Shown here: positions 4,500-48,695 of the stretch, in pieces | Numbering within the stretch: position 1 is the first letter of the stretch | How the letters are laid out: every line of letters begins with the position of its first letter | NCBI GenBank assembly: GCA_023974075.1 | Contig: CM043808.1 | Span: forward strand, 18,149,572-18,213,571 | Length of the DNA: 64,000 bases | Reading direction: 5' to 3' | From: Chaenocephalus aceratus | Taxonomy: Eukaryota > Chordata > Actinopteri > Perciformes > Channichthyidae | The notes under the pieces: generated by a model | The model's database searches: none | Told to the model about the DNA's origin: nothing | The model's input: only the letters and a program-made list of their open reading frames with translations | Program-made: the position numbers and the translations under genes

Positions 4500-4559
4500 C
4501 TGTACACCAGGGCTATTCAACTGGCGGCCCGCGGGCCAAATCCGGCCCCCGGGTGATAT

Positions 4560-22670: not shown

Positions 22671-22989
22671 CAGGGGTGTCAAACTCAAGGCCCGGGGGCC
22701 AAATCCGGCCCGCGACTTCATTTGATGTGGCCCGCAAGAGCTTGCAAAGAATATAATACGTTCTTATACGGTTACATGAAGAGAGAATTATTTGCCCTGG
22801 ACTTCTGCTTTCAGACGTAGTTAATTACTAAGTTATTACCCTATCCGATAATAATCCAATGCAGAGGCAATAATGTAATTATAATACATTATTTTGTATA
22901 TATTATATATTTATATGGTTACAACCGGCCCTTTGAGTGCAACCATAATGCTAATGTGGCCCGCGATGAATTTGAGTTTGACACCCCTG
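22671..22989. mobile_element. hAT MITE in the LINE reverse transcriptase
   Basis: The ends are CAGGGGTGTCAAACTCAA and its inverse. The 8-bp duplication is CTCTAGAC (22663-22670 and 22990-22997). Excision joins codons '..ISLD' and 'QEKAFDRV' in the RT palm. A very common fish hAT non-autonomous type. Confidence 0.95.
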
Positions 22990-31606: not shown

Positions 31607-31918
31607 CTACCAGTCCTGTGTTGCCCCCGCAAGTACAGACGAGGAGAAAGAGCCCGACATGTCCAAGATATAAAACCTTATGAAGGGGCCTGGCGTCGAC
31701 CAAGACGCCGCTGTGCATATATCCTCCACACTCACACCGTTGAATAAGGCTGCAGCCACAGCCCGTGTGGAGTGTGCACGAACCCCCGTGGGGCAGGCTC
31801 TCCCTGCCTGTCCGTAGGCATGTGCAATGCACTCGCAGAGCCAGCCTGCCAGGCGTTTCTTCGACAGAGCTTTCCCGGTCACCCCGCCCCCGAAGCACAC
31901 GAACAGCTGTTCGGTGCG
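31607..31918 (-). pseudogene. DIRS tyrosine recombinase, C-terminal catalytic part
   Basis: Minus-strand codons 'RTEQLFVCFGG', 'KRLAGWLCECIAHAYG', 'VRAHSTRAVAAALFNGVSVE' (supplying H-x2-R) and 'FIRFYILDM' (supplying the tyrosine nucleophile) complete the recombinase interrupted at 46164. Codons at the break match on both sides of the duplicated GGTGCG. The region 31071-31600 is non-coding DIRS sequence. Confidence 0.85.
31913..31918 (+). repeat. Target site duplication GGTGCG (left)
   Basis: Six bases identical to 46164-46169. Deleting 31919-46169 restores the DIRS recombinase frame across the site. Confidence 0.9.
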
Positions 31919-31969
31919 AGTAGTGATACAAATGCGGTATCAATCTCATTAGTATGCAGAGAAAGTGAC

Positions 31970-32125
31970 AGGTCGCCCCGCCCCTTTTTGACCGGAAGTC
32001 CCGCCTTTTTATTTTGAAAACCGGAAGTCCCGCCTTTTTATTTTATTTTGAAAACCGGAAGTCCCGTCTCGTTCGACCGGAAGTCCCGAATCGTTCGACC
32101 GGATGTACAGCCACCGCTTCCGGTT
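31970..32125. promoter_or_regulatory. Left tip: cluster of ETS-type sites and GC box
   Basis: CGCCCCGCCCC near 31976 is a GC box (Sp1/KLF type). CCGGAAGT occurs at 31992, 32021, 32055 and 32077, then CCGGATGT at 32099 and an inverted CTTCCGG at 32117. The ETS family core with flanking ACC is the GABP-type consensus. The units are separated by CCCGCCTTTTTATTTTGAAA, so this is a short tandem array. By inference it is an enhancer or promoter of the terminal gene. Confidence 0.5.
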
Positions 32126-32329
32126 TACAAAATTAAATTAAAATTAAATTAAAATTAAAAAAATGAGAAAAATTAAATGCAGTTGTTTTCAATCAATTAA
32201 TATACATAGGATATATATCCCGCCTCCTAACCACTTCCTGTGTGGTTAATCCTGTATATAGTATTGAATGTAACTTGCAAATAACATGAAATTAATCTAA
32301 AGTAAAGCATCTAAAAAAATGTATATTTA

Positions 32330-32381
32330 AACCTCTCTATTTTTGCAAACAGGACAGGAGGGGAGAAAACATATGGTGGAG

Positions 32382-32438
<57 letters not shown>

Positions 32439-32717
32439 TCCCCGCCCATCACCCCATCTCCCACTGTCTAAATAAAAAGCCAGCTTCACTCTTAAATATT
32501 TCTCAAGTCGAGAGAAAATGGCCAAGAGACGTCTTGATATGAATTTAATCAGCGAGACACCGGTAACAACTTACAACCATCCGTTGGGTGCTCCAATCAA
32601 GAAACGAATGAAGTTTGTATGCCGGGTTCAGACACCTACAGCCGAAGAACTTCGCCTCTCTGTTTTTGCGAACAGGACATGAGGGGAGAGACCATATGGT
32701 GGGCCAAGGGGAGGGGG

Positions 32718-32756
<39 letters not shown>

Positions 32757-32920
32757 TCCCCACCCCTCACCCCATCTCCCCTTAGAGGTTGTTTAAATAA
32801 AAGCCAGCGTCTCTTGTGGCCATGAGACGTCTTGATATGAGTTTAATCAGCGAGACACGGTGACAACTTACAACCATCCGTTGGGTGCTCCAAATCAAAA
32901 GTAAAGCATATAAAAAAAAA
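32330..32920. repeat. ~320-bp tandem duplication with CA tracts (left arm)
   Basis: Two successive units each contain CCTCTCT(A/G)TTTTTGC, AACAGGAC, a (CA)n tract (32387-32437 and 32719-32754), CACCCCATCTCCC, a TAAATAAAA-AGCCAGC stretch and the start of the small ORF (AAGAGACGTCTTGATATGA or similar). The second ORF copy is broken after about 13 codons. Confidence 0.8.
32518..32682 (+). CDS. 54-aa basic protein of the palindrome (left arm)
   Basis: The ORF starts MAKRRLDMNLISETP and ends FANRT. The N-terminus is basic, and a central KKRMK cluster could act in nuclear import. Upstream is TAAATAAAAAGCC, a TATA-like stretch about 45 bases before the ATG. The ORF spans the junction of the tandem duplication, so its last residues come from the second unit. 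Its conservation in both arms only shows that the arms are copies. No family is recognised; small basic proteins are common near the ends of linear DNA viruses and Polintons, but that is analogy only. Confidence 0.4.
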   Translation: MAKRRLDMNLISETPVTTYNHPLGAPIKKRMKFVCRVQTPTAEELRLSVFANRT

Positions 32921-33492
32921 CAGATATTTTAAAAAGGCAGCTTTTTTTGTTAAAGGATAAGGGAGGGGGGAAAAAAAACCAAACCCCCTGTGGAGGAACC
33001 GTAAACCCCCTATGGAGACAACCATGCGGTAATTAGAGGGAGGTAGGTAATATACTTAAAATATATATAGAAAGTCAGAGAATATTTATCAGAGGATAAC
33101 GCATATACATTTTATACAAGTCGACACGAGTGGATTTTGTAAGAAAACAAAGTTTTCGTACTCAGACCGCTGCAACATTTTCAAGCAGATCTCTGCGATA
33201 TGCAGTCGCTGTCCAAATATAATGATGACTTTTAATTATTTGTTAACAGTCATAAATGTATTTAGAAAAAACCTGTGCTCAAACATTAAAAAGAAAAAGA
33301 AGGGTAAAGTTACCAAAGCTTTTTGATACAGTTTTTAACACACAGCGAGATCCCTAAAAAAAAAAGTTACAAACAGCTGCGGGGAAAGAATTCTTTACTA
33401 AAGTTTTTTCAAAACTTGTTGAAGAAAAGAGGTATTGCACATTATATAACCTCCAGTGACATAAGGCATGTACGGTAGAAAGATTTAACCGT

Positions 33493-33730
33493 ATGCTGAA
33501 AACTAAAATGTGGAGGTATTTTACAGCTAAAAACACTCCTAGACCTAAAAATCTGAGAAAAACCAAGTCTCTCCCCACGATATGCAGCCTGGATCAAATG
33601 CCTACAGGACCGCCATCCTCACCAACATTTAGGACACCAGATCTGGACAGCGCTATGGCTGACATTGATATCACGGGGTGGCTGGATATGCCTCAACCTC
33701 CATGTGAATTACACACAAATCTGCAGAGTG

Positions 33731-33766
<36 letters not shown>
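33493..33766 (+). pseudogene. ~90-aa ORF, 3' end lost in a (TA)n tract (left arm)
   Basis: The ORF reads 'MLKTKMWRYFTAKNTPRPK' and then NLRKTKSLPT, a phrase nearly the same at DNA level as the start of the 91-aa gene at 38132 (CTGAGAAAAACCAAGTCT). It continues 'LDQMPTGPPSSPTFRTPDLD' and is then lost in a (TA)n microsatellite at 33733, so the natural stop is missing. In the right arm the first ATG is changed and the ORF can only start at MWRYF. After the (TA)n a dispersed repeat fills 33770-34010. No family recognised. Confidence 0.35.
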
Positions 33767-33767
<1 letters not shown>

Positions 33768-34019
33768 TTTATTTAACAGGTAAAAAAAAACCTCATTGAG
33801 ATTAAAATCTCTTTTTCCAAGAGTGACCTGACCAAGAAGGGCAGCATGTACAAAGTTACAACATATAAAACACAGACATGAAAGGCAGACAAATACAGCT
33901 GTAAAACACAAATAAAATGGCACATTAGCCAGTCAATATAAAACCTTTATTTAACCAGATTGGTCCCATTGAGATCATAGATCTCTTTTTCAAGGGAGAC
34001 CTGCAGAAATATGCAAAGT

Positions 34020-36280
34020 AAAACAAACTATTAAAATCATTCAAAAACTGGCAACATTTTTAAAACGATTTCAAGATATACGAGCACTCACATCGACCAA
34101 AACTAAAAAAGTGTTACACAATGACTGACATTCTGTACGGGAGTTCACACCCCCCAGCTGCTGTAGGGAGTTGAAATATGTTAAGGCTCTCGGGGGATGG
34201 TGGTTAAGAGACAGATTCTTAGTTTTTGGACTGCCTCAGGGGGTTAACGACATCTACTAAAAACAAAGTACTTCATAGTGTTAGTGTTCCCTGCCCTTAT
34301 CCATTTATTTTTCTTTATTCAGCAATCGGCAATTGTGTCACCTTGTTTTTTCTTGTTAATTAGGAAAGTGCTTGCTTAAATGTTTGTATTTTAAGTGCAT
34401 ATTATAGAACAGGTATAGGGCAATATCAAAATTAGCCCAAACTTTTTTTTTATTCACAATGTTTACTGATAATCATCAAAATATGCAGGGGGTCCAATTC
34501 TTAACTTTTCCCTAAAACATTCTAGAATTTCTTTATCTAACACAAAAAACATGAATTTTAAAAACATTTGACAACAATAGATACGTTGTTCCTGTTTTTA
34601 TTACGATTATCAGATACAAAATGATAAGTATAAATAAATCTATGCTTTCAAATGCATTATTCAGAGATATTAGGCCTGTCAAATCAAAACTGGAGCATGT
34701 GAATAAGAGAGAGCAGAGTCCTAACCAGCAGCCCCTCTGATCCAAACCAAACTCTGAGCAGCAGGCGGCTGAGACGGAGCCAACCAGCATGCGGACCAAA
34801 CTGCTGCTATTGATATTTGTCTATATTGATGTTAAACATGGAGCTGCTGTGATGCAAGTCAAATTTGATCTGACCATTAAAGTATTATCGTATTATCGTA
34901 TCGTATTTCTGCAGGAGATCCACACATAGACAACTCAACATCACAAAGAGGTCAAAAACTTCACAACAGCCCTTTCAATTGGGACAAAATGTATCGACAG
35001 TCATTTAAAAATGACCCCTCTCACAACTAAGAAGAAGTTAAGAAAATGGACACTGCAAATATAGCTAGGTAAAATGCCAAGTGGGTACAGCTCATTACAA
35101 ATGTTAATCTTGGGTTTGCTTTCACTCGATGAAGCTCAGTGCAAGTTCTTTCATGAAGTGCAGGGTCTTTAATGAAGACTTTCACCTTTCCTAGTCGGAT
35201 TCTCGTACCCCTAAATCTATCACAGCAAGATGGAGTCTAATCGCCAAAGTTTAATATATATTGCTCTTTGTATACACAGCAATAAATATGTTTATCGCAC
35301 TAAACAAACTTCAACTGTCAATCATTCCAAACACTCTTTAAACCGAGGAGGAGGGGCAGACTTAAAATATTGTAACGCAATTTAATCACATTACAAAGTT
35401 TGACCCAAAGTTGCTCCCACGCGGATGTTCCCCATGAATTGAATGGTTTTGGAAGAGCAAAGGCAGATTTTGGCTTTTTTTCTCTTGCCAAGATACTTTT
35501 AGACACACTTTGAGGGATGCAAAACCTTAAAACTAGAAAATGAAGTACAGTCTGATTAGATTTTTTCTTAAAGACTGTTTCTCTAAAAGGTAAGTTTGTG
35601 ATTTTAACAATTTTCCCTGACACTTGGCAGATTTGTGTGTAATTCTCTCACAACGGAACTGTAAGATACACTTTTTATGTATGCAAAACCTTAAACTTTT
35701 TTTTTTTTTTTTTGGAAAATAAAATACTTTGTCTGAATACATTTTCTTTAAAGGCACTTTTTTTTATTTTAACGCTATTTCAGTGGAAAAATACAGTTTT
35801 TGTTGACATCAAGGCTTTTTTCTCTTTTCTTGTGTTACTAAGATACTTTTAGACACACTTTGATGTATGCAACACTTGTTCAGTTAAACAATGGGTTTTT
35901 TTTTTTTTTTCTGATAAATTTACATATTTTAGTTATTTTATGTTACCAAGATACTTTGAGATACACCCTGATGTACGCAACACTTAACAAAGGGTATAAT
36001 ATGAAGTACTTGGTAAGGAAGGGGTTTTTCCTTAAGGGTGCAAAACTTTAGAACAGGGTAAAATATTCATTAAATTGTATTGAATTGAGTTTTCTTTTTT
36101 TGATTTTCAACATACTATTTGTACACAATGACTTTTCCATATTTCTGATAAACTATACTTTTGACTTTTTTCCGTAAAATCATGACAAACTATTACTTAT
36201 TCTTAAATTTCACCTATTGCTGGAGATGAGATGAAAAAGCTACAACGCTTAAAGAACTTTTTTTTCTAAAAACTCTCAAT
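34020..36280. other. Left-arm AT-rich non-coding region with diverged intergenic repeats
   Basis: No convincing gene is seen. Segments around 34240-34290 and 35530-35900 are diverged relatives of the ~120-bp repeat at 37573-38050 (TTAACGA(C/A)ATCTACT, ACTTCATT.TCTA, AGATACACTTT). A dispersed motif with GAGATCATAGATCTC lies at 33972. The mirror region is 41803-44060. Confidence 0.5.
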
Positions 36281-36298
36281 TCTATAATTGACTCCCCC

Positions 36299-36381
36299 AT
36301 TCAACGCAATGAGCCCCACCCTCCACTCAGCAAATCATCTAAAACGAAGGACCTCACTAAGACGATCGTTGTAAACTAGCC
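36299..36381 (+). promoter_or_regulatory. Duplicated promoter/leader cassette, copy A (left arm)
   Basis: The sequence CATTCAACGCAATGAGCCCC, then CCACTCAGCAAATCATCTAAAA, then AACTAGCCATGG leads into the 187-aa ORF. The same blocks precede the 91-aa ORF at 38132. TCTAAAA replaces the TATAAAA of copy B. The TATA-like box is about 37 bases from the ATG, so the leader would be only a few bases long. Mirror copy: 41720-41802. Confidence 0.6.
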
Positions 36382-36945
36382 ATGGAGCAGAGAAAAGCCA
36401 AGACTCCCCCCGCGAGTTGCAGTCAGGAACAGAGTCTACCAGCAACACCACCATGTGGGAAACCCGAATCTTGCAGTACTACTGCTGCTGATGCTACTCC
36501 TCGGGTCAAGAAGTCTCGGTTTAGGGACACAGTGAAATCGGAGTTGTTTTATATTCTGGAGATGGTGATGTATCGGTACAGAAAAGAAATCTGCAAAGAA
36601 TGCCGACGCAGTAACCCCGACCAGAGGCAACACGATTGTCGGAATGACATGCCCGATTTCTTCTTCAGAAACAATTACAATGCGTTAATGAAAAGACTTT
36701 GGCTCGCCGACTTCGTTGCAGTGATTGACCAGAGTCTTATTGAAAAAGGCATTTGCGAGGATAAACTGAGGATAGGACGCGCTTCGGAAGCTTTTCTGCA
36801 CAAGCTTGTAAAATGCAGATGCCTCAAGGAGAGACTTGAAATATCCATACAGAGTTGGATGGAGAAGAAGAAGACTAACAAACAACAGTCGGATGGAGAA
36901 GAAGCCAGGGACTTGTTCAATGCAGTGACTTTTTTCTTTAAGTAA
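36382..36945 (+). CDS. 187-aa Cys/His-cluster protein (left arm, intact)
   Basis: The start is fixed by the promoter cassette and a good context (GCCATGG). Residues 1-45 are Ser/Pro/Thr-rich and basic (MEQRKAKTPP). The core from residue 50 is helical ('SELFYILEMVMYRYRKEICK') and holds C71-x2-C74-x9-H84-x-C86, a likely zinc site. It is followed by 'DFFFRNNYNALMKRLWLADF' and a C-terminal basic helix with EKKK. No membrane segment. It is followed after 7 bases by the 154-aa ORF. I do not recognise the family. A zinc-stabilised small regulatory protein of a DNA virus-like element is the likeliest reading, by inference only. Confidence 0.5.
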   Translation: MEQRKAKTPPASCSQEQSLPATPPCGKPESCSTTAADATPRVKKSRFRDTVKSELFYILEMVMYRYRKEICKECRRSNPDQRQHDCRNDMPDFFFRNNYNALMKRLWLADFVAVIDQSLIEKGICEDKLRIGRASEAFLHKLVKCRCLKERLEISIQSWMEKKKTNKQQSDGEEARDLFNAVTFFFK

Positions 36946-36952
36946 AATAAAA

Positions 36953-37417
36953 ATGGGAAACTACTTTGCAAAACGCTCTGTATATATTGATCATAATGTA
37001 GTCATTACCCGTTTAATAAATGTGGTGATGGGGACGATTGAAAACAGAACGAGTAGTGACCCCTGTGTAAAAAGAATGGCTGAAGTTTGTAAACTACAAG
37101 ACATTTTGGATATCGTTCGTTCTGGCAGTACTATTCCGGGTCATTGGGAAACGCTTGTAAACGAAACATTTAAAGTGGTCCTGGAATCTTCATTTTCCGA
37201 AACATTCTGTAACATTATCTCAGAAATGAAACAAACATCAAAAGTGTATCATGTGCTCTCATTGTATGCTCTGTTTGTAGATGTAATGCATCTGTGTGTT
37301 GAAAACAGCATACACGTGAATATTTTGACTGAAGTGAAAAAACTCCATCACGATATCTCCAATAATATGGGGAATTCTAAGCTGGAGACTGTCCTGGGGA
37401 TGCTACAATCAGTATAA
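36953..37417 (+). CDS. 154-aa helical protein, possibly Bcl-2-like (left arm)
   Basis: It starts 7 bases after the stop of the 187-aa ORF on the same strand, with no promoter between, so both may be read from one mRNA. The N-terminus MGNYF could be myristoylated at Gly2. The rest is predicted helical without a zinc site or membrane tail. The stretch 'VYHVLSLYALFVDVMHLCVE' (residues about 98-117) has the hydrophobic spacing of the Bcl-2 BH1 helix region, and 'MAEVCKLQDILDIVRSG' could serve as a BH3-like helix. The hallmark NWGR is absent. I rate the Bcl-2 resemblance as weak. AATAAA follows at 37440. Confidence 0.5.
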   Translation: MGNYFAKRSVYIDHNVVITRLINVVMGTIENRTSSDPCVKRMAEVCKLQDILDIVRSGSTIPGHWETLVNETFKVVLESSFSETFCNIISEMKQTSKVYHVLSLYALFVDVMHLCVENSIHVNILTEVKKLHHDISNNMGNSKLETVLGMLQSV

Positions 37418-37439
37418 CTATTGATTTTGTGGGTGAAAA

Positions 37440-37445
37440 AATAAA
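37440..37445 (+). terminator. Polyadenylation signal after the two-ORF unit (left arm)
   Basis: AATAAA lies 23 bases after the stop of the 154-aa ORF, with GT-rich sequence downstream. No signal occurs between the two ORFs, which supports a shared mRNA. Confidence 0.55.
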
Positions 37446-37572
37446 AAAAGTGTTCTTTACATCTAAAAACTGTTGTCATCATTATAGCAAGGGGAGCGTA
37501 TCTGATACATGTGTATTACAGTCCTTCTTGTTGTGTTTTTCAGTGTTTTCTGTGTGTCTGTACACACAAAGC

Positions 37573-38050
37573 ACACTTCATTATCTACTTGTCAGCTTCT
37601 TTAAAAAGAAAAGTGTATCTTTCGGTAACTTTCTCAGAGAATTTAAGCATAAATATGTCAAATGTTCAAAACAGCCTTGTTTCACTGAAATACCCTCAAA
37701 ATGACAAACTGCCATTAAGAGTCAGATTCTTAACCAAATCTACTGAAACAAAGTCCTTCATTATCTACTTTTCAGCTTTTAATACAAAAGTGTATCTTTC
37801 GGTAACCTTCTTGAGAGAATTAAGCATAAATCTGTCAAAGATTCTTAACGAAATCTACTGACACAAAGTCTACTTCATTATCTACTTTTCAGCTTTTTTA
37901 AAAAGAAAAGTGTATCTTTCGGTAACTTTCTCAGAGAATTTAAGCATAAATCTGTCAAATGTTCAAAACAGCCTTGTTTCACTGAAATACCCTCAAAATG
38001 ACAAACTGCCATTATTACGAAATCTCCTCAAACAGAGTACTTTCTACAGA
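37573..38050 (+). repeat. ~120-180-bp tandem intergenic repeat, three units (left arm)
   Basis: Units start at about 37573, 37756 and 37873. They share CTTCATTATCTACTTTTCAG, AAAGTGTATCTTTCGGTAAC and GAATTTAAGCATAAATCTGTC. The middle unit lacks the CAAAACAGCCTTGTTTCAC section present in the other two. Open frames in this area are repeat artefacts. The last unit runs into promoter cassette B. Confidence 0.85.
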
Positions 38051-38062
38051 TGAAGCCTTCCC

Positions 38063-38131
38063 ACTCAACGCAATATGTCCCACCCACTCAGCAAATCATA
38101 TAAAACTAAGGACGACCGTTAAAAACTAGCC
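38063..38131 (+). promoter_or_regulatory. Duplicated promoter/leader cassette, copy B (left arm)
   Basis: CACTCAACGCAATATGTCCC, CCACTCAGCAAATCATATAAAA and AACTAGCCATGG match cassette A at 36299. TATAAAA is at 38099-38105, 27 bases before the ATG at 38132. Initiation at the usual ~30-base distance would place the start site at the ATG itself. The match continues a few codons into the coding region (ATGGA.C.GAGAAAA.CCAAG). Mirror copy: 39956-40024. Confidence 0.65.
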
Positions 38132-38407
38132 ATGGATCTGAGAAAAACCAAGTCTGATGTAGCCTGCCCTTATTATCACCAGGATAATGGATATGGGCTT
38201 AATGACTGGATGTTACAAAGTAGGGGAGAGGATGTTCCCGAAGAAGAGCTCTCGCGTATATCATATCCATGTAAGGTCTTTAGGACAAAAGAGGACCATG
38301 ATAACATGACATATGAAGAATATCTTTCTTTAAAAGATGGTATTATAGATAACCTTTATAGAAACAGTATATTTCATACCACTCGCAAGATCGCAAACGA
38401 CAATTAG
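38132..38407 (+). CDS. 91-aa acidic protein (left arm)
   Basis: It starts 'MDLRKTKSDVACPYYHQD', then an acidic middle ('SRGEDVPEEELSR', 'MTYEEYLSLKDG') and ends at 38407. The first seven codons are shared at DNA level with the 187-aa gene and with part of the ORF at 33493, so the N-terminus belongs to the duplicated promoter cassette. A second ORF in the -1 frame is open from 38362 and overlaps its last 45 bases. Translation or splicing could therefore link the acidic part to the very basic part, but no canonical slippery heptamer is seen. Family unknown. Confidence 0.5.
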   Translation: MDLRKTKSDVACPYYHQDNGYGLNDWMLQSRGEDVPEEELSRISYPCKVFRTKEDHDNMTYEEYLSLKDGIIDNLYRNSIFHTTRKIANDN

Positions 38408-38451
38408 CAGAAAAGAATAGAAAAAGTAAAGAAAAACGAAGAAAAAGCAAC

Positions 38452-38712
38452 ATGAAAAGGAGAAGAAAAATTAAAAGCAAACGCAGAATGCGAATGAAAA
38501 GAAAAGGGACCATAGGACGCAAAACTAAAAAGACAAAAAGAAGGAAGGTGAAAAGAAAAAGAAACAAAGTGAAGAAATTTAAACTAGAGGATGATATTGT
38601 AGAGCCATTACCGGATCATAATAATCTTATAGATCATCTCCCGCTAACCGACTGCTGCGAATGTCTTGAACAAATACCAAAAGCAATGTCAAAAAAACAG
38701 AGCATACAATGA
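38452..38712 (+). pseudogene. Basic protein gene, truncated at the palindrome junction (left arm)
   Basis: The first 79 codons equal the N-terminus of the 255-aa protein (MKRRRKIKSKRRM...). At 38689 the left arm ends and the frame runs seven codons into spacer sequence before a stop. The break marks the end of the fold-back copy. Confidence 0.75.
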
Positions 38713-39398
38713 AAGCACATGATACACTATAAATGTTTCGTTTACAATACTATTACTATATATGAAAGCAAAAAAAATAAAACACATTTTCATTGTGTAA
38801 TGGTTGTTTAATTGAAAAAACACAACATTCAACACAATTCATAGAAAACATATTACATTTTACCAAGTTAATGTCGTAGTGCATACAAGGTAATAGACTT
38901 AACGATTTGCACTGCTGCTTCTCTCCGCGTTTCATTGACAGTGATCGGTTTGTCGTTCAATTCACACAGCCCAAGTAGATGTTTAGGGGTCTCTTGGAAG
39001 TATACGAAAGCATTTTTTATATCAGATAAATGCATTAACATCACATGTAAATTCTCTATCCTTTCACCCGCAACGATTATAATCTGCTTTGCTTCTTCTT
39101 CGGTTTCTCCATTATTAGCTCTGAATGTAATCCTTTCTGGGACTTCTTGTGCTTCTTGTGGTCTGTTGAATACCTGGCGTAGGATTTGTTTAGCTGTAAG
39201 GACAGGTACCATATAATTGTCTTCAAAAGCTTTGTCTATGTCGTCACACGTTTTGGCGTATCCTTCGCTGTAATGACAACCGACACTAGAATAGAGATCC
39301 TCCAACAGTTTTTTAATACATATTCTGGCACTGTCGCCAATTTGGGCAATTCCACAGTATCGCGCTTTTTCTCTCATTATACTGAAGCAAAGTTCTGC
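38689..39398. other. Unpaired centre (loop) of the palindrome
   Basis: Positions 38752-39398 hold the single copy of most of the 255-aa gene and its 3' side. Positions 38689-38750 are a mosaic: ACAGAGCATACAATGAAAGC and TAAATGTTTCGTTTACAA match two separate parts of the 154-aa gene in the right arm (about 40811-40842 and 40914-40931), joined with the 71 bases between deleted. The junction therefore records template switching. Confidence 0.75.
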
Positions 39399-39635
39399 CA
39401 TTGCTTTTGGTATTTGTTCAAGACATTCGCAGCAGTCGGTTAGCGGGAGATGATCTATAAGATTATTATGATCCGGTAATGGCTCTACAATATCATCCTC
39501 TAGTTTAAATTTCTTCACTTTGTTTCTTTTTCTTTTCACCTTCCTTCTTTTTGTCTTTTTAGTTTTGCGTCCTATGGTCCCTTTTCTTTTCATTCGCATT
39601 CTGCGTTTGCTTTTAATTTTTCTTCTCCTTTTCAT
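38868..39635 (-). CDS. 255-aa protein with strongly basic N-terminus (right arm and spacer)
   Basis: Residues 1-42 are almost all Lys/Arg, a nuclear or nucleolar and nucleic-acid-binding type tail. The rest is helical: 'LPLTDCCECLEQIPKAM', 'AELCFSIMREKARYC', 'ICIKKLLEDLYSS', then 'AGERIENLHVMLMHLSDIKN' and a C-terminus ending LYALRH. Several cysteines are scattered, with DCCEC at about residue 70. It is not a match to any family I know; a core-like or regulatory protein of a linear DNA element is possible. ATTAAA on the minus strand (plus 38808-38813) is a candidate polyadenylation signal. It is the only gene that extends into the unpaired centre. Confidence 0.55.
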   Translation of the reverse strand: MKRRRKIKSKRRMRMKRKGTIGRKTKKTKRRKVKRKRNKVKKFKLEDDIVEPLPDHNNLIDHLPLTDCCECLEQIPKAMAELCFSIMREKARYCGIAQIGDSARICIKKLLEDLYSSVGCHYSEGYAKTCDDIDKAFEDNYMVPVLTAKQILRQVFNRPQEAQEVPERITFRANNGETEEEAKQIIIVAGERIENLHVMLMHLSDIKNAFVYFQETPKHLLGLCELNDKPITVNETRREAAVQIVKSITLYALRH

Positions 39636-39679
39636 GTTGCTTTTTCTTCGTTTTTCTTTACTTTTTCTATTCTTTTCTG

Positions 39680-39955
39680 CTAATTGTCGTTTGCGATCTT
39701 GCGAGTGGTATGAGATATACTGTTTCTATAAAGGTTATCTATAATACCATCTTTTAAAGAAAGATATTCTTCATATGTCATGTTATCATGGTCCTCTTTT
39801 GTCCTAAAGACCTTACATGGATATGATATACGCGAGAGCTCTTCTTCGGGAACATCCTCTCCCCTACTTTGTAACATCCAGTCATTAAGCCCATATCCAT
39901 TATCCTGGTGATAATAAGGGCAGGCTACATCAGACTTGGTTTTTCTCAGATCCAT
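39680..39955 (-). CDS. 91-aa acidic protein (right arm)
   Basis: The mirror copy of 38132-38407 with a Phe-to-Ser change near residue 81. It is followed by the intact 255-aa ORF in an overlapping frame. Confidence 0.5.
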   Translation of the reverse strand: MDLRKTKSDVACPYYHQDNGYGLNDWMLQSRGEDVPEEELSRISYPCKVFRTKEDHDNMTYEEYLSLKDGIIDNLYRNSISHTTRKIANDN

Positions 39956-40024
39956 GGCTAGTTTTTAACGGTCGTCCTTAGTTTTATATGATTTGCTGAG
40001 TGGGTGGGACATATTGCGTTGAGT
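39956..40024 (-). promoter_or_regulatory. Promoter/leader cassette B (right arm)
   Basis: The mirror of 38063-38131. It drives the only intact copy of the 91-aa plus 255-aa pair. Confidence 0.65.
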
Positions 40025-40036
40025 GGGAAGGCTTCA

Positions 40037-40514
40037 TCTGTAGAAAGTACTCTGTTTGAGGAGATTTCGTAATAATGGCAGTTTGTCATTTTGAGGGTAT
40101 TTCAGTGAAACAAGGCTGTTTTGAACATTTGACAGATTTATGCTTAAATTCTCTGAGAAAGTTACCGAAAGATACACTTTTCTTTTTAAAAAAGCTGAAA
40201 AGTAGATAATGAAGTAGACTTTGTGTCAGTAGATTTCGTTAAGAATCTTTGACAGATTTATGCTTAATTCTCTCAAGAAGGTTACCGAAAGATACACTTT
40301 TGTATTAAAAGCTGAAAAGTAGATAATGAAGGACTTTGTTTCAGTAGATTTGGTTAAGAATCTGACTCTTAATGGCAGTTTGTCATTTTGAGGGTATTTC
40401 AGTGAAACAAGGCTGTTTTGAACATTTGACATATTTATGCTTAAATTCTCTGAGAAAGTTACCGAAAGATACACTTTTCTTTTTAAAGAAGCTGAAAAGT
40501 AGATAATGAAGTGT
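40037..40514 (-). repeat. ~120-180-bp tandem intergenic repeat, three units (right arm)
   Basis: The mirror of 37573-38050, almost identical. Confidence 0.85.
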
Positions 40515-40641
40515 GCTTTGTGTGTACAGACACACAGAAAACACTGAAAAACACAACAAGAAGGACTGTAATACACATGTATCAGATACGCTCCCCTTGC
40601 TATAATGATGACAACAGTTTTTAGATGTAAAGAACACTTTT

Positions 40642-40647
40642 TTTATT
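40642..40647 (-). terminator. Polyadenylation signal after the two-ORF unit (right arm)
   Basis: The mirror of 37440-37445 (TTTATT on plus). Confidence 0.55.
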
Positions 40648-40669
40648 TTTTCACCCACAAAATCAATAG

Positions 40670-41134
40670 TTATACTGATTGTAGCATCCCCAGGACAGTC
40701 TCCAGCTTAGAATTCCCCATATTATTGGAGATATCGTGATGGAGTTTTTTCACTTCAGTCAAAATATTCACGTGTATGCTGTTTTCAACACACATATGCA
40801 TTACATCTACAAACAGAGCATACAATGAGAGCACATGATACACTTTTGATGTTTGTTTCATTTCTGAGATAATGTTACAGAATGTTTCGGAAAATGAAGA
40901 TTCCAGGACCACTTTAAATGTTTCGTTTACAAGCGTTTCCCAATGACCCGGAATAGTACTGCCAGAACGAACGATATCCAAAATGTCTTGTAGTTTACAA
41001 ACTTCAGCCATTCTTTTTACACAGGGGTCACTACTCGTTCTGTTTTCAATCGTCCCCATCACCACATTTATTAAACGGGTAATGACTACATTATGATCAA
41101 TATATACAGAGCGTTTTGCAAAGTAGTTTCCCAT
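40670..41134 (-). CDS. 154-aa helical protein, possibly Bcl-2-like (right arm)
   Basis: The mirror copy of 36953-37417 with a Leu-to-Met change near residue 113. It is intact here, but its upstream partner ORF is frameshifted. A third, partial and rearranged piece of this gene lies in the centre spacer (38697-38747). Confidence 0.5.
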   Translation of the reverse strand: MGNYFAKRSVYIDHNVVITRLINVVMGTIENRTSSDPCVKRMAEVCKLQDILDIVRSGSTIPGHWETLVNETFKVVLESSFSETFCNIISEMKQTSKVYHVLSLYALFVDVMHMCVENSIHVNILTEVKKLHHDISNNMGNSKLETVLGMLQSV

Positions 41135-41141
41135 TTTTATT

Positions 41142-41719
41142 TTACTTAAAGAAAAAAGTCACTGCATTGAACAAGTCCCTGGCTTCTTCTCCATCCGACT
41201 GTTGTTTGTTAGTCTTCTTCTTCTCCATCCAACTCTGTATGGATATTTCAAGTCTCTCCTTGAGGCATCTGCATTTTACAAGCTTGTGCAGAAAAGCTTG
41301 TGCAGAAAAGCTTCCGAAGCGCGTCCTATCCTCAGTTTATCCTCGCAAATGCCTTTTTCAATAAGACTCTGGTCAATCACTGCAACGAAGTCGGCGAGCC
41401 AAAGTCTTTTCATTAACGCATTGTAATTGTTTCTGAAGAAGAAATCGGGCATGTCATTCCGACAATCGTGTTGCCTCTGGTCGGGGTTACTGCGTCGGCA
41501 TTCTTTGCAGATTTCTTTTCTGTACCGATACATCACCATCTCCAGAATATAAAACAACTCCGATTTCACTGTGTCCCTAAACCGAGACTTCTTGACCCGA
41601 GGAGTAGCATCAGCAGCAGTAGTACTGCAAGATTCGGGTTTCCCACATGGTGGTGTTGCTGGTAGACGCTGTTCCTGACTGCAACTCGCGGGGGGAGTCT
41701 TGGCTTTTCTCTGCTCCAT
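41142..41719 (-). pseudogene. 187-aa Cys/His protein gene, frameshifted by a 14-bp duplication (right arm)
   Basis: The mirror of 36382-36945. The unit AGCTTGTGCAGAAA is present twice at 41281-41308 and once in the left arm. The duplication shifts the frame after residue 140, so the protein ends at 147 codons without its basic C-terminal helix. A Ser-to-Arg change near residue 18 is the only other obvious coding difference. Confidence 0.7.
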
Positions 41720-41802
41720 GGCTAGTTTACAATGATCGTCTTAGCGAGGTCCTTCGTTTTAGATGATTTTCTGAGTGGAGGGTGGGGCTCATTGCGTTGA
41801 AT
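41720..41802 (-). promoter_or_regulatory. Promoter/leader cassette A (right arm)
   Basis: The mirror of 36299-36381, with small differences (GATTTTCTGAG for GATTTGCTGAG). Confidence 0.6.
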
Positions 41803-44306
41803 GGGGGAGTCAATTATAGAATTGATAGTTTTTAGAAAAAAAGTTCTTTAAGAGTTGTAGCTTTTTCATCTCATCTCCAGCAATAGGTGAAATGTAAGAA
41901 TAAGTAATAGTTTGTCATGATTTTACGGAAAAAGTATAGTTTATCAGAAATATGGAAAAGTCATTGTGTACAAATAGTATGTTGAAAATCAAAAAAGAAA
42001 ACTCAATTCAATACAATTTAATGAATATTTTACCCTGTTCTAAAGTTTTGCACCCTTAAGGAAAAACCCCTTCCTTACCAAGTACTTCATATTATACCCT
42101 TTGTTAAGTGTTGCGTACATCAGGGTGTATCTCAAAGTATCTTGGTAACATAAAATAACTAAAATATGTAAGTTTATCAGAAAAAAAAAACCATTATTTA
42201 ACTGAACAAGTGTTGCATACATCAAAGTGTGTCTAAAAGTATCTTAGTAACACAAGAAAAGAGAAAAAAAGCCTTGATGTCAACAAAACTGTATTTTTCC
42301 ACTGAAATAGCGTTAAAATAAAAAAAAGTGCCTTTAAAGAAAATGTATTCAGACAAAGTATTTTATTTTCAAAAAAAAAAAAAAAAAAGTTTAAGGTTTT
42401 GCATACATAAAAAGTGTATCTTACAGTTCCGTTGTGAGAGAATTACACACAAATCTTAAAGTGTCAGGGAAAATTGTTAAAATCATAAACTTACCTTTTA
42501 GAGAAACAGTCTTTAAGAAAAAATCTAATCAGACTGTACTTCATTTTCTAGTTTTAAGGTTTTGCATCCCTCAAAGTGTGTCTAAAAGTATCTTGGCAAA
42601 GAGAAAAAAGCCAAAATCTGCCTTTGCTCTTCCAAAACCATTCAATTCATGGGGAACATCCGCGTGGGAGCAACTTTGGGTCAAACTTTGTAATGTGATT
42701 AAATTGCGTTACAATATTTTAAGTCTGCCCCTCCTCCTCGGTTTAAAGAGTGTTTGGAATGATTGACAGTTGAAGTTTGTTTAGTGCGATAAACATATTT
42801 ATTGCTGTGTATACAAAGAGCAATATATATTAAACTTTGGCGATTAGACTCCATCTTGCTGTGATAGATTTAGGGGTACGAGAATCCGACTAGGAAAGGT
42901 GAAAGTCTTCATTAAAGACCCTGCACTTCATGAAAGAACTTGCACTGAGCTTCATCGAGTGAAAGCAAACCCAAGATTAACATTTGTAATGAGCTGTACC
43001 CACTTGGCATTTTACCTAGCTATATTTGCAGTGTCCATTTTCTTAACTTCTTCTTAGTTGTGAGAGGGGTCATTTTTAAATGACTGTCGATACATTTTGT
43101 CCCAATTGAAAGGGCTGTTGTGAAGTTTTTGACCTCTTTGTGATGTTGAGTTGTCTATGTGTGGATCTCCTGCAGAAATACGATACGATAATACGATAAT
43201 ACTTTAATGGTCAGATCAAATTTGACTTGCATCACAGCAGCTCCATGTTTAACATCAATATAGACAAATATCAATAGCAGCAGTTTGGTCCGCATGCTGG
43301 TTGGCTCCGTCTCAGCCGCCTGCTGCTCAGAGTTTGGTTTGGATCAGAGGGGCTGCTGGTTAGGACTCTGCTCTCTCTTATTCACATGCTCCAGTTTTGA
43401 TTTGACAGGCCTAATATCTCTGAATAATGCATTTGAAAGCATAGATTTATTTATACTTATCATTTTGTATCTGATAATCGTAATAAAAACAGGAACAACG
43501 TATCTATTGTTGTCAAATGTTTTTAAAATTCATGTTTTTTGTGTTAGATAAAGAAATTCTAGAATGTTTTAGGGAAAAGTTAAGAATTGGACCCCCTGCA
43601 TATTTTGATGATTATCAGTAAACATTGTGAATAAAAAAAAAGTTTGGGCTAATTTTGATATTGCCCTATACCTGTTCTATAATATGCATTTAAAATACAA
43701 ACATTTAAGCAAGCACTTTCCTAATTAACAAGAAAAAACAAGGTGACACAATTGCCGATTGCTGAATAAAGAAAAATAAATGGATAAGGGCAGGGAACAC
43801 TAACACTATGAAGTACTTTGTTTTTAGTAGATGTCGTTAACCCCCTGAGGCAGTCCAAAAACTAAGAATCTGTCTCTTAACCACCATCCCCCGAGAGCCT
43901 TAACATATTTCAACTCCCTACAGCAGCTGGGGGTGTGAACTCCCGTACAGAATGTCAGTCATTGTGTAACACTTTTTTAGTTTTGGTCGATGTGAGTGCT
44001 CGTATATCTTGAAATCGTTTTAAAAATGTTGCCAGTTTTTGAATGATTTTAATAGTTTGTTTTACTTTGCATATTTCTGCAGGTCTCCCTTGAAAAAGAG
44101 ATCTATGATCTCAATGGGACCAATCTGGTTAAATAAAGGTTTTATATTGACTGGCTAATGTGCCATTTTATTTGTGTTTTACAGCTGTATTTGTCTGCCT
44201 TTCATGTCTGTGTTTTATATGTTGTAACTTTGTACATGCTGCCCTTCTTGGTCAGGTCACTCTTGGAAAAAGAGATTTTAATCTCAATGAGGTTTTTTTT
44301 TACCTG

Positions 44307-44315
44307 TTAAATAAA

Positions 44316-44350
<35 letters not shown>

Positions 44351-44573
44351 CACTCTGCAGATTTGTGTGTAATTCACATGGAGGTTGAGGCATATCCAGC
44401 CACCCCGTGATATCAATGTCAGCCATAGCGCTGTCCAGATCTGGTGTCCTAAATGTTGGTGAGGATGGCGGTCCTGTAGGCATTTGATCCAGGCTGCATA
44501 TCGTGGGGAGAGACTTGGTTTTTCTCAGATTTTTAGGTCTAGGAGTGTTTTTAGCTGTAAAATACCTCCACAT
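44307..44573 (-). pseudogene. ~88-aa ORF, 3' end lost in a (TA)n tract (right arm)
   Basis: The mirror of 33493-33766. The upstream ATG has become ACG, so this copy starts four codons later. The (TA)n tract (44318-44346) is shorter than in the left arm. Confidence 0.35.
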
Positions 44574-45175
44574 TTTAGTTTACAGCGTACGGTTAAATCT
44601 TTCTACCGTACATGCCTTATGTCACTGGCGGTTATATAATGTGCAATACCTCTTTTCTTCAACAAGTTTTGAAAAAAACTTTAGTAAAGAATTCTTACCC
44701 CGCAGCTGTTTGTAACTTTTTTTTAGGGATCTCGCTGTGTGTTAAAAACTATATCAAAAAGCTTTGGTAACTTTACCCTTCTTTTTCTTTTTAATGTTTG
44801 AGCACAGGTTTTTTCTAAATACATTTATGACTGTTAACAAATAATTAAAAGTCATCATTATATTCGGACAGCGATTGCATATCGCAGAGATCTGCTTGAA
44901 AATGCTGCAGCGGTCTGAGAACGAAAACTTTGTTTTCTTACAAAATCCACTCGTGTCGACTTGTATAAAATGTATATGCGTTATCCTCTGATAAATATTC
45001 TCTGACTTTCTATATATATTTTAAGTATATTACCTACCTCCCCCTAATTACCGCATGGTTGTCTCCATAGGGGGTTTACGGTTCCTCCACAGGGGGTTTG
45101 GTTTTTTTTTTCCCCCTCCCTTATCCTTTAACAAAAAAGCTGCCTTTTTAAAATATCTGTTTTTTATATGCTTTA

Positions 45176-45321
45176 CTTTTGATTTGGAGCACCCAACGGA
45201 TGGTCGTAAGTTGTCACCGATGTCTCGCTGATTAAACTCATATCAAGACGTCTCATGGCCACAAGAGACGCTGGCTTTTATTTAAACAACCTCTAAGGGG
45301 AGATGGGGTGGGGGGTGAGGA

Positions 45322-45372
<51 letters not shown>

Positions 45373-45651
45373 CCCCCTCCCCTCGGCCCACCCTATGGTC
45401 TCTCCCCTCATGTCCTGTTCGCAAAAACAGAGAGGCGAAGTTCTTCGGCTGTAGGTGTCTGAACCCGGCATACAAACTTCATTCGTTTCTTGATTGGAGC
45501 ACCCAACGGATGGTTGTAAGTTGTTACCGGTGTCTCGCTGATTAAATTCATATCAAGACGTCTCTTGGCCATTTTCTCTCGACTTGAGAAATATTTAAGA
45601 GTGAAGCTGGCTTTTTATTTAGACAGTGGGAGATGGGGTGATGGGCGGGGA

Positions 45652-45696
<45 letters not shown>

Positions 45697-45750
45697 CCTC
45701 CTCCACCATATGTTTTCTCCCCTCCTGTCCTGTTTGCAAAAATAGAGAGG
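45176..45750. repeat. ~320-bp tandem duplication with GT tracts (right arm)
   Basis: The mirror of 32330-32920. The (GT)n tracts lie at 45324-45371 and 45653-45693; their lengths differ from the left arm, as expected of microsatellites. Confidence 0.8.
45408..45572 (-). CDS. 54-aa basic protein of the palindrome (right arm)
   Basis: The mirror copy of 32518-32682 with the same start, length and stop. The second, truncated copy of the ORF start in this arm reads CATGAGACGTC on the minus strand near 45255. Confidence 0.4.
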   Translation of the reverse strand: MAKRRLDMNLISETPVTTYNHPLGAPIKKRMKFVCRVQTPTAEELRLSVFANRT

Positions 45751-45954
45751 TTTAAATATACATTTTTTTAGATGCTTTACTTTAGATTAATTTCATGTTA
45801 TTTGCAAGTTACATTCAATACTATATACAGGATTAATCACACAGGAAGTGGTTAGGAGGCGGGATATATATCCTATGTATATTAATTGATTGAAAACAAC
45901 TGCATTTAATTTTTCTCATTTTTTTAATTTTAATTTAATTTTAATTTTATTTTG

Positions 45955-46112
45955 TAAACCGGAAGCGGTGGCTGTACATCCGGTCGAACGATTCGGGACT
46001 TCCGGTAGAATGACACGGGACTTCCGGTTTTCAAAATAAAATAAAAAGGCGGGACTTCCGGTTTTCAAAATAAAGAGGCGGGACTTCCGGTCAAAAAGGG
46101 GCGGGGCGACCT
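45955..46112. promoter_or_regulatory. Right tip: cluster of ETS-type sites and GC box
   Basis: The mirror of the left tip array, with ACTTCCGG at four places and CATCCGG once. One spacer differs (CGGTAGAATGACACGG replaces CGGTCGAACGAGACGG), so the tips have diverged slightly. Confidence 0.5.
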
Positions 46113-46163
46113 GTCACTTTCTCTGCATACTAATGAGATTGATACCGCATTTGTATCACTACT

Positions 46164-46169
46164 GGTGCG
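46164..46169 (+). repeat. Target site duplication GGTGCG (right)
   Basis: The partner of 31913-31918. Confidence 0.9.
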
Positions 46170-46930
46170 TCTAAGGGCAGCCGTGCGCTCTACATAACAT
46201 GCTAGCGCACGCACCGGGCAGAGGAGGTGCAGTTTAGCTTCCCTGGTCCCACATGGGGGGGAAGCCTAAAACCCCCTAACTGAATAGCCCCTGACCTGAA
46301 CGCACTCCTTAGGCTCTTGGGCACAAAGGAGGGGTTCGGTCTGAGTGTCGCGCCGCTCCGGTCACCCCGAATCTGTAAACAGCTCGGGTGCACCGACAGA
46401 GCAGTTAACTCGGACACTCCTTTGGCTGACGTTAAGGCAAGAAGCAAAGCTGTTTTCCACGACAATGCTTTCAGAGAGGAGAGCTCCAGAGGCTCAAACA
46501 GCCCCGAGGCCAGAGCCTCGAGCACTAGGGGCAGGTCCCACTGTGGGGTGGAGGCGTGCACTACTGGGCGCAGCCTCCTGACCCCCTGTAAAAAACCGCG
46601 ACATCAGTGGTTGACTAAAGGCTGACCTGCCGCCAAATCCCTCATGGCAGGACGAGATGGCTGCTGCATACACCTTCACTGTTGAATGCGCAAGCCCTCT
46701 GTCCACCAGTAACTGTAAGAAGGATAAAATAGAGCCTAACTCACAAGATAGGGGCTCTATTCTCCGCTCCTCACACCATCGCTGGAATCCTAGCCACTTT
46801 GGCCTGTAACAGGCTGTGGTGGATCCAGCTGTAGCTGCCTGGATAGACTGAATAACACTATCAGACAATCCACCCTGTCTCAACCTGTCCCTCTCAGGAG
46901 CCAAACCTGGAGAGGACAGCCGAGAGTGGG
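46164..46930 (-). pseudogene. DIRS tyrosine recombinase, N-terminal and central part
   Basis: The SAM-like N-terminal domain reads 'VIQSIQAATAGSTTACYRPK', 'WLGFQRWCEE' and 'SFLQLLVDRGLAHSTVKVY'. After a frameshift near 46530 the catalytic domain begins ('PLELSSLKALSWKTALLLAL', then TSAKGVSEL). The position that normally carries the first catalytic arginine (AKRV) is glycine here (GGA codon at about 46417). The gene continues after the palindrome at 31912-31607. Confidence 0.85.
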
Positions 46931-48695
46931 TAACACCCCGATTGCACCTGCCTCTTGAGACATCGCCCCCCAGAACTGGGGAACCGCCCAGGGCTGGCCC
47001 ACCTTCATCTGTGTCATCTCTGAGTACCACGGCGCCCCAACGCGATCCGGAGCCACTAGGATGACTGACAGACGTTCTCGCCTCACTCTCCTCAGGAGGG
47101 GGAGAATGAGACGCAGCGGTGGAAAGGCGTATAGCAGCTTCCTTGGCCATGGCTCGTGTGCAAACGCGTCCACCCCCAAGGGTGGGTCGTTGCTCCGAGC
47201 CACGGAGAACCACAGGGCACAGTGGCTGTTTCGCCGGCTGGCGAACAGATCCACTTCCGCTCTCCCGAACTGGGCCCAGATCTGCTTCACCACCTTCGGG
47301 TGAAGCACCCACTCGCCTGGCAGGGGGCCGCCCCTCGACATGAGGTCGGCTCCCCCGTTCTCCAGTCCCGGGATATGGAGGGCTCTCAGAGATAACACCA
47401 CCTCTGAAGCCCATAACCACAGCCTCTCCGCTGTGGTCAACAAGGCGGCGGAGCGGACTCCGCTCTGCCTGTTGATATAAGCCACTGTGGTGCTGTTGTC
47501 GCTCCTGACCATTACATGCCTCCCTTGAATTAGGGGCCTGAAATGCTGGAGGACTAACACTACCGCCCGTAGCTCTAGGAGGTTGCTGTGTCGAGACTCT
47601 GTTAGAGCCCAGCGCCCACCTATAGCCCTCTTCAGGCAGGTCCCTCCCCATCCTGTTCCGGATGCATCCGTGAACACTGTGATGTAGGAGGTCACCCGTC
47701 CCAGTGGAGACCCCCTCCGGAGGTGATCCGGGGACCCCCAAAACCGGAGGTTGCCCCTCACTGAGGGGGGTATGGTCACCAGCCGCCGCTTGTGCCTCTT
47801 GGGATCCAAGCGCAGGCTGGAGAACCACCTCTGCAGGCGGCGCATATGTAGTAACCCTAACGGGACCATCATGTGATCAGCCGCCATGAGACCCAGCGTC
47901 TGCATGACAGTAAAAGCTGTCACTGTTGCCCCCTGTCGCAGTCTGCGTAGCCCCTGAAGAAGGGACGCACGTCTGCTCTCTGACAGGGTGGCGCGCAACG
48001 TGCCTGCATCGAGCACCACACCCAAATACAACGCCCGTTGGTGAGGTATGGGGGTGCTCTTTTTCCAATTGATCGCGAAGCCTGATCTAGTTAGGTGTGT
48101 GATCAATTGTGCTGTGCAAAACATTGCCTGTTCCCGTGACCCAGCCATGACTATGAGGTCGTCTATGTAAAAGAAAACTCTCATGCCGTGTGCGCGCAGC
48201 GGTTGAAGCGCTGTGGCCACACATTTGCTGAATGTGCGTGGGGATAGGGAATAGCCTGTTGTACTCGTAGGCTATTCCCTGGAAGGCAAAACGCAGATAC
48301 TTTCTGTGCTTTGGAGCAATTTCTACATGAAAGTATGCGTCTTTCAGGTCGATGGTGGTGAACCAATCGCCTGGCTGCACCAGCCCCAGTAACTGTTTCA
48401 TAGTTAGCATGCAGAATTTCCGGCGGGAAATGTGGCCATTCAGGCCGCGGAGATCTAGAATAGGTCTGAATTCCCCTGTCTTCTTGGGAACCAGGAAGTA
48501 TATGGAATAAAGACCCTCTTCCCTGCGCTGAGGGTGCACAACAGACACAGCCTGTTTCTGCACCAGAGCCTGAATCTCTGCTGAGAGGAAACTCATCCCC
48601 TCTCGAGAGGATAGCTTCACCTCTCGCATGCCCATAAAAGGGGGTGGGACGCTGCAGAACTGGAGTGAATAGCCCCGTTTCAGCGTCCTGTCCAT
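46880..48695 (-). pseudogene. DIRS reverse transcriptase-RNase H, one frameshift
   Basis: ORF 48695-48087 covers the RT fingers ('YFLVPKKTGEFRPILDLRGL', 'WFTTIDLKDAYFHVEI'). It then shifts frame near 48240 into the ORF 48220-46880, which has the catalytic 'FFYIDDLIV' box, 'GFAINWKKS' and 'YLGVVLD'. RNase H follows ('VFTDASGTGWGG', 'LLELRAV', 'VRSDNSTTVAYINRQ') and a C-terminal segment ('EVDLFASR') usual for DIRS. The catalytic residues are intact, and the single frameshift is the main visible lesion. Confidence 0.9.

Follow-up and report, generated by a model that had tools for sequence, protein, structure and literature searches.

The 64,000-nucleotide stretch of the Chaenocephalus aceratus genome analyzed here, referred to as the window (contig CM043808.1, positions 18,149,572 to 18,213,571), carries a 14.2-kb palindrome at positions 31919-46163. 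This palindrome is best explained as belonging to a family, both large and young, of palindromic, non-autonomous Maverick (Polinton) derivatives, for which we infer a polymerase and a hairpin intermediate. The left arm (31919..38694, + strand) and the inverted right arm (39393..46163, - strand), each about 6.77 kb long, are 99.1% identical (58 mismatches in 6742 aligned columns, with 16 gap events); at this length, chance cannot account for their likeness. The initial annotation, made from the sequence alone, was thus right that the palindrome is real, while the loop that it put at 710 bp measures 698 nt (38695..39392, - strand, single copy). The arms turn around at a short imperfect match, AAAAGCAATG, after which one arm reads TCA and the other GCA; this turnaround is designated J1. 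As had been recognized at the outset, the tips start with AG and GGTGCG is repeated in the flanks: the element reads AGTAGT...ACTACT from end to end, with the tip AGTAGTGATACAAATGCGGTATCAATCTC on the left arm, and its boundaries are GGTGCG / AGTAGTGATAC...GTATCACTACT / GGTGCG, the two copies of the target-site duplication lying at 31913..31918 and 46164..46169.

The palindrome interrupts a DIRS-like retrotransposon on the - strand (46202..48695, continuing at 31607-31918). When the flanks are fused with one copy of GGTGCG, a 135-codon frame is open across the insertion point; by eye it resembles a DIRS-type tyrosine recombinase, and a Pfam scan of this frame returned no match. At 46883-48220 in the same DIRS-like element, an RNase H domain scored above the Pfam cut-off and a reverse transcriptase domain (RVT_1) just below it. 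The flanks are therefore two sides of one site, which argues against a hairpin artefact.

The longest reading frame within the element has 285 codons. Nearest the left tip is a truncated copy of the MAKRRLD gene (32518..32682, +), in which 45 of 46 residues are identical to the beginning of the 267-aa gene at the right end of locus L020, and which is mirrored in the right arm by a stop-to-stop frame (45408-45614, -). It is followed by a 0.48-kb integrase fragment (33063..33538, +), whose DNA is 88% identical to the L020 integrase gene and which shares 23 of 27 residues with it where the frames match; a comparable fragment is present in the left end of a longer copy at C9:16649594. Accessory gene A of the left arm (36382..36945, +, 187 aa) matches, over 66% of its length, a Champsocephalus esox hypothetical protein at 95% identity, which suggests an Antarctic notothenioid fish as the source of the DNA. 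It also matches the 218-aa gene at the right end of L020 at 32% identity over 155 columns. Its right-arm counterpart (41276..41719, -, 147 aa) is shortened by a 14-nt tandem duplication within 41280-41313. Accessory gene B (36953..37417, +, 154 aa), which has no Pfam match, differs by 1 residue from its right-arm copy (40670..41134, -). The 3′ part of a central gene runs from the right arm through the loop (38868..39725, -; 285-codon frame, with an ATG open reading frame [ORF] of 255 aa from 39635). Its 5′ part, at 39680-39964, sits in another frame, so the gene is frame-broken in the window, and the left-arm version (38123..38712, +) is cut at the turnaround. In a palindrome on contig C21, the same gene is a single 323-aa ORF across arm and loop.

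None of the arm and loop ORFs scanned scored above a curated Pfam cut-off, the best weak match being TSP1_2 (E 0.0034) in the MAKRRLD frame. The initial annotation had reported that no core Polinton gene is present; the integrase fragment in the arm corrects this. The scanned arm and loop ORFs gave no Pfam match to a protein-primed family B polymerase (PolB), none of the genome-wide PolB matches listed falls at the window locus (C24:18.18-18.20 Mb), and no intact retroviral-type integrase gene was found in the element. Capsid, ATPase, and protease likewise had no Pfam match among the scanned ORFs of the element, a weak test in that 6 of 10 ORFs of the longer C9 copy are also unmatched. Searches of the protein database gave 8 relatives, 7 on contigs of 599-2120 bases and 1 in Champsocephalus esox. 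Searches of PDB sequences gave nothing below E 0.28; viral contigs contained neither an exact tip nor any confirmed relative of gene A, gene B, or the central gene; phage records contained no match to 36300-38700; and Rfam and tRNA scans found nothing. A Bcl-2-like reading of gene B, originally a guess, was dropped, as the structure models were too poor to search (mean pLDDT of 44 for B and 52 for A).

According to PMC8097293, the commonest end motif of vertebrate Mavericks is 5′-(AGT)2//(ACT)2-3′, they produce 6-bp duplications, intact elements span 12.7-24.6 kb with terminal repeats of 46-1447 bp, and accessory genes lie near the ends. The window element agrees in end motif, duplication, and size, as well as in the position of its accessory genes; it differs in being palindromic, with 6.8-kb arms outside the terminal-repeat range, and in having no core gene beyond a fragment. 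Its tips are also those of PolB-bearing relatives of 14.9-15.6 kb in the same genome. One such copy, at C9:16649594-16665239, spans 15,646 bp, with the duplication CTCGAG and terminal repeats of about 0.75 kb. It encodes an integrase with rve and chromo domains, both above cut-offs, as well as further long ORFs without a Pfam match; its PolB reading frame is split into several ORFs and was detected as two pieces below the cut-off (PF03175, 25.6 and 19.2 bits versus 25.8). PolB scored above the cut-off in four more tip pairs (C5:35426511, C7:3136050, C8:17202476, and C10:12760529). The outer end of the window arm (arm positions 1-1633) is 97.6% identical to the left, PolB-side end of the C9 copy, and the next 153 bp (1633-1785) are 95% identical to its right end. 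The end common to the window arm and the C9 left end holds fragments of right-end genes (the MAKRRLD start and the integrase piece). The remainder of the window arm had no further DNA match when compared with the end-to-end halves of the C9 copy. The Maverick/Polinton origin proposed in the initial annotation is thus supported by the end motif, the 6-bp duplication, the 1.63-kb common end, and longer copies with the same tips and PolB, with integrase in the one examined. The same annotation had added "adintovirus-like"; adintoviruses are defined (PMC11071296) by a PolB with an OTU-like domain together with an adintovirus hexon. Across the genome, the PolB family comprises at least 134 matched stretches (91 of 144 candidates scored). 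Besides many broken PolB frames, some Maverick PolB frames are open over at least 1,500 codons, and helper functions may accordingly have existed recently.

The 1.064-Gb assembly (G000, with the window on contig C24) was searched with the 29-base tip, allowing up to two mismatches. This yielded 122 forward and 124 reverse sites, and a reversed-pattern control yielded 0. Pairing was drawn from the first 100 of these 246 sites (contigs C1-C13), which resolved into 45 facing pairs spaced 6.5-15.6 kb apart and 10 unpaired tips. Inverted symmetry was found in 36 pairs and PolB in 5, and 4 were assigned to neither. For 19 pairs, sequence was read either from the two ends or from one end plus the center; 17 of them proved inverted-symmetric, over roughly 1.5 kb or longer or across the center, and 2 PolB-bearing; among the symmetric ones, C1:32378755 has arms of unequal extent and C5:34523730 is symmetric over 1.5 kb only. 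The other 26 pairs were sampled at 950-1400 bp from each tip, giving 19 symmetric and 7 nonsymmetric pairs, 3 of the latter with PolB (the remaining four are C5:21138508, C7:32683227, C10:735562, and C11:2573341). Perfect 6-bp duplications flank 17 of 19 copies tested (15/17 symmetric and 2/2 PolB-bearing, the exceptions being C5:6259606 and C1:32378755), in addition to the window element and the C21 palindrome. In one symmetric copy (L047/L048, C4:39412846-39428304), a further, nearly complete tip region lies ∼1.23 kb inward of the outermost one in each arm, as though an element end had been attached beyond an existing one.

The family has no fewer than eight turnaround points. J1, with its 698-nt loop, was also read in C6:21782171, C23:16250071, C13:669607, C1:18083361, and C21. 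J2 (arm positions 6530|6595) was read in six copies, two of which (C1:37279484 and C3:2704204) have zero differences in 3591 gap-free columns, either within or between the elements. Other turnarounds lie at 6249|4564, 6627|5630, 6767|4906, and loop 325|arm 6648, and two centers lie within the loop, at loop 224|484 (C283) and loop ∼10|473 (C5:1026477). These last two need another inverted copying or joining, since deletion inside one J1 palindrome cannot give them, and deletion across the center as the sole origin of new turnarounds is thereby ruled out. One arm continues naturally into the J1 loop, as seen from the intact gene in C21. One end is present twice, inverted, around this single-copy loop, which is, by analogy, the geometry of a defective snap-back genome. 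The snap-back junction of J1 occurs at 68 sites and the natural continuation at 161, with 0 for the controls. Among 84 exact natural-junction sites listed, 41 have a facing snap-back junction at most 1 kb away, with a spacing of 706-713 in 38 cases. At eight loci, two snap-back junctions face each other, two of these at a spacing of 123; the one that was read (L114) has an arm on one side only. A search with the loop gave 383 first-look candidates, and the 40 that were scored were all 99-100% identical. On contig C243, a facing pair of natural junctions, spaced by 818 bases, occurs in two places (113955/114773 and 163534/164352), possibly a fold-back of the other arm type.

The outer arms appear to have been exchanged. 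In three palindromes the outer arms agree with the C9 left end for 2449 bp (97-98%), and in three more they agree with the C9 right end up to position 3000 (97-99%); all of these have parts of the inner arm in common with the window element. The tips of the C21 palindrome (13,853 bp, duplication GGGGAA) are Maverick-like but different, AGTAGTAGTAATGATG. Each of its arms holds PolB fragments, yet its center is J1, with a loop 98.7% identical to that of the window; PolB-bearing arms of this type occur at two further loci (C15 and C6). A haplotype code was compiled from 15 sites in the outer 1.6 kb, picked where the window arms differ in states found in other copies, and nine codes were distinguished among right arms. 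Both arms have the same code, gaps being treated as compatible, in 15 of 18 palindromes; the mean after shuffling was 2.66, and 0 of 100,000 shuffles scored as high. Structural mosaics are symmetric across the arms as well. In the window, the left arm carries haplotype B in its outer 1.63 kb (B state at 15/15 sites) and the right arm the master haplotype in its outer 1.6 kb (master state at 15/15). Part of the B tract is common to arms of C11:14537756 and C4:16046281, and 15 of the 31 window arm differences in the outer 4 kb fall in this shared tract, so about half of them were inherited or received from another copy. The implication of the initial annotation that the arms were copied once and then mutated is not supported by this result. 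The left ends of the two long copies examined also differ (B and then master in C9, master in C7), which points to exchange between palindromes and Mavericks.

Taken together, these results make it probable that the family is a non-autonomous one, whose palindromic Mavericks arose through repeated fold-back copying and were multiplied in trans. A replicating strand starting at one tip would switch to the opposite strand ∼700 nt beyond its re-entry point and copy back to the tip, yielding a genome with two working ends and a J1 center. The switch could be made by a strand-displacing polymerase at the short imperfect match and the TCA or GCA that follows it. Common tips, ends, and haplotypes suggest replication by helpers, and resident Mavericks would provide both polymerase and integrase in trans. 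A single palindromic strand could pair with itself as a hairpin of half its length that has one normal end, which is how we propose that the arms are kept alike: by replication from the hairpin end through the turnaround and back or by repair of mismatches in the hairpin. Template switching with resident Mavericks would swap the outer arms. Further turnaround points would come from additional fold-backs or from deletions spanning the center. Of the snap-back history put forward in the initial annotation, the fold-back shape and the reliance on machinery from elsewhere are retained; the single event keeping one end is not, as the arm is a mosaic and the family is large and amplified, with several turnarounds and exchanged outer arms. 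We extend this reading, tentatively, to the possibility that the J1 center is a selfish replicon core that switches between the full palindrome and a hairpin of half the length with a single protein-primed end, takes ends from different Maverick families by template switching, and copies each to both sides, as a satellite outnumbering its helpers.

Several observations weigh against repeated fold-back copying and propagation in trans. Three of the 18 palindromes (the window element, C11:14537756, and C4:16046281) have unlike arms, which also rules out that every element was newly snapped back at insertion. Several of the turnarounds can be explained by deletion across the center, with no need for a new fold-back. 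No facing snap-back junction accompanies 43 of the 84 exact natural-junction sites; at least 3 of the 43 are in known palindromes (C21, C15, and C10:5453487) and others may be parents, but the loci read include no non-palindromic parent for the inner arm and loop. The tip list covers 100 of 246 sites, and 19 of the 36 symmetric copies were sampled only at 950-1400 bp from the tip, where a palindrome is indistinguishable from a repeat slightly longer than 1.4 kb. Purifying selection on the central gene is not visible from the comparison of its last 177 codons in the window and C21 (6 nonsynonymous and 2 synonymous codon differences). Finally, the reading is based on assembled sequence, and a replication intermediate, hairpin, virion, or mobilization has not been observed.

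Two other origins deserve consideration, both of which we regard as unlikely. Following a single fold-back event, the arms could have been kept alike after insertion by gene conversion, to which long inverted repeats in chromosomes are known to be subject. The arm differences in the window are indeed clustered (chi-square of 81.9 across 13 500-bp bins, a value reached in 0 of 20,000 simulations), with a difference-free patch at 34419-35418 between diverged patches. The haplotype tract shared with arms of two other copies, however, accounts for 15 of the 31 differences in the outer 4 kb, and therefore the clustering by itself is no evidence of post-insertion conversion; the structural mosaics are symmetric as well, and arm-to-arm conversion in a J1 palindrome would not give rise to secondary turnarounds like loop 224|484. 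The other possibility, about equally improbable, is that two broken Mavericks were joined head to head, or that sister breaks were fused, by host repair, with no Maverick polymerase in the turn. The geometry of the product would be identical, linear extrachromosomal DNA is a substrate for end joining, and a copy with arms 1828|4718 resembles a join or a deletion. Against this, the J1 loop naturally continues one arm, and the turn lies at a short imperfect match, where a template switch would put it, although host polymerases are still compatible with it. An assembly or library hairpin is very unlikely despite the classic palindromic form: the flanks of the window element differ, are not inverted relative to one another, and carry a perfect target duplication; 16 further palindromes in the assembly have perfect 6-bp duplications of their own; substitutions and gaps separate the window arms; tips are paired at 45 listed places; and 17 of 19 copies tested have perfect, differing duplications. 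An ordinary long-armed DNA transposon (Foldback, Galileo, or Mutator type) that is Maverick-like at its ends only would account for the long arms and the lack of a detected transposase, and Galileo copies are reported to exchange sequences (PMC3573991), but it has next to no credibility given the tips, end regions up to about 3 kb, and haplotypes in common with PolB-bearing Mavericks of the same genome.

Fold-back copying by Maverick machinery, the preferred reading, has partial parallels in other systems. Adeno-associated virus (AAV) replicates from hairpin ends. AAV particles contain double-stranded defective genomes in a snapback configuration derived from one virus end (PMC8235507), and they are by analogy the nearest experimental parallel among those considered here. 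The copies described here differ in being integrated and numerous and in swapping outer arms with presumed helpers. A hairpin plasmid reportedly described by Kikuchi et al. in 1985 is said to be a palindromic derivative of a linear terminal-protein replicon, the protein-primed yeast plasmid pGKL1, and, unlike the window element, to be cytoplasmic and not integrated. Galileo (PMC3573991) likewise has long inverted arms, structural variation, and sequence exchange between copies, but it belongs to the P-element superfamily, whereas the present family has Maverick ends and end regions in common with Mavericks. No report of palindromic Mavericks was found in the titles and abstract openings of the literature matches listed, from a search that excluded subscription journals, and the passages of PMC6431247 consulted mention no palindromic Polinton.

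Non-autonomous Maverick derivatives are unsurprising in principle; an amplified palindromic family with exchangeable ends, commoner here than the PolB-bearing form (36 versus 5 of 45 tip pairs), is surprising. Vertebrate Mavericks are thought to replicate extrachromosomally by protein priming, a view that rests mainly on gene content and end motifs. A multicopy fold-back family with shared turnarounds, like arms, and exchanged ends is the trace expected from strand-displacement replication with template switching, and it makes the Maverick replication mode testable. It also points to a satellite-helper relation inside an animal genome and implies that arm divergence in such elements is no simple measure of insertion age.

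Elsewhere in the window, an ORF with DUF1759 lies at 886-1734 (+), which we take to be perhaps from a Pao/BEL-type element. A Ty3/Gypsy-type pol fragment (RNase H, H2C2, and rve) is present at 3159-4520 (-), and a non-LTR-type reverse transcriptase ORF (RVT_1 and zf-RVT) at 22956-24953 (+). A 1365-codon ORF at 59860-63957 (-), with no Pfam match above the cut-off, contains internal repeats spaced about 2.2 kb apart.

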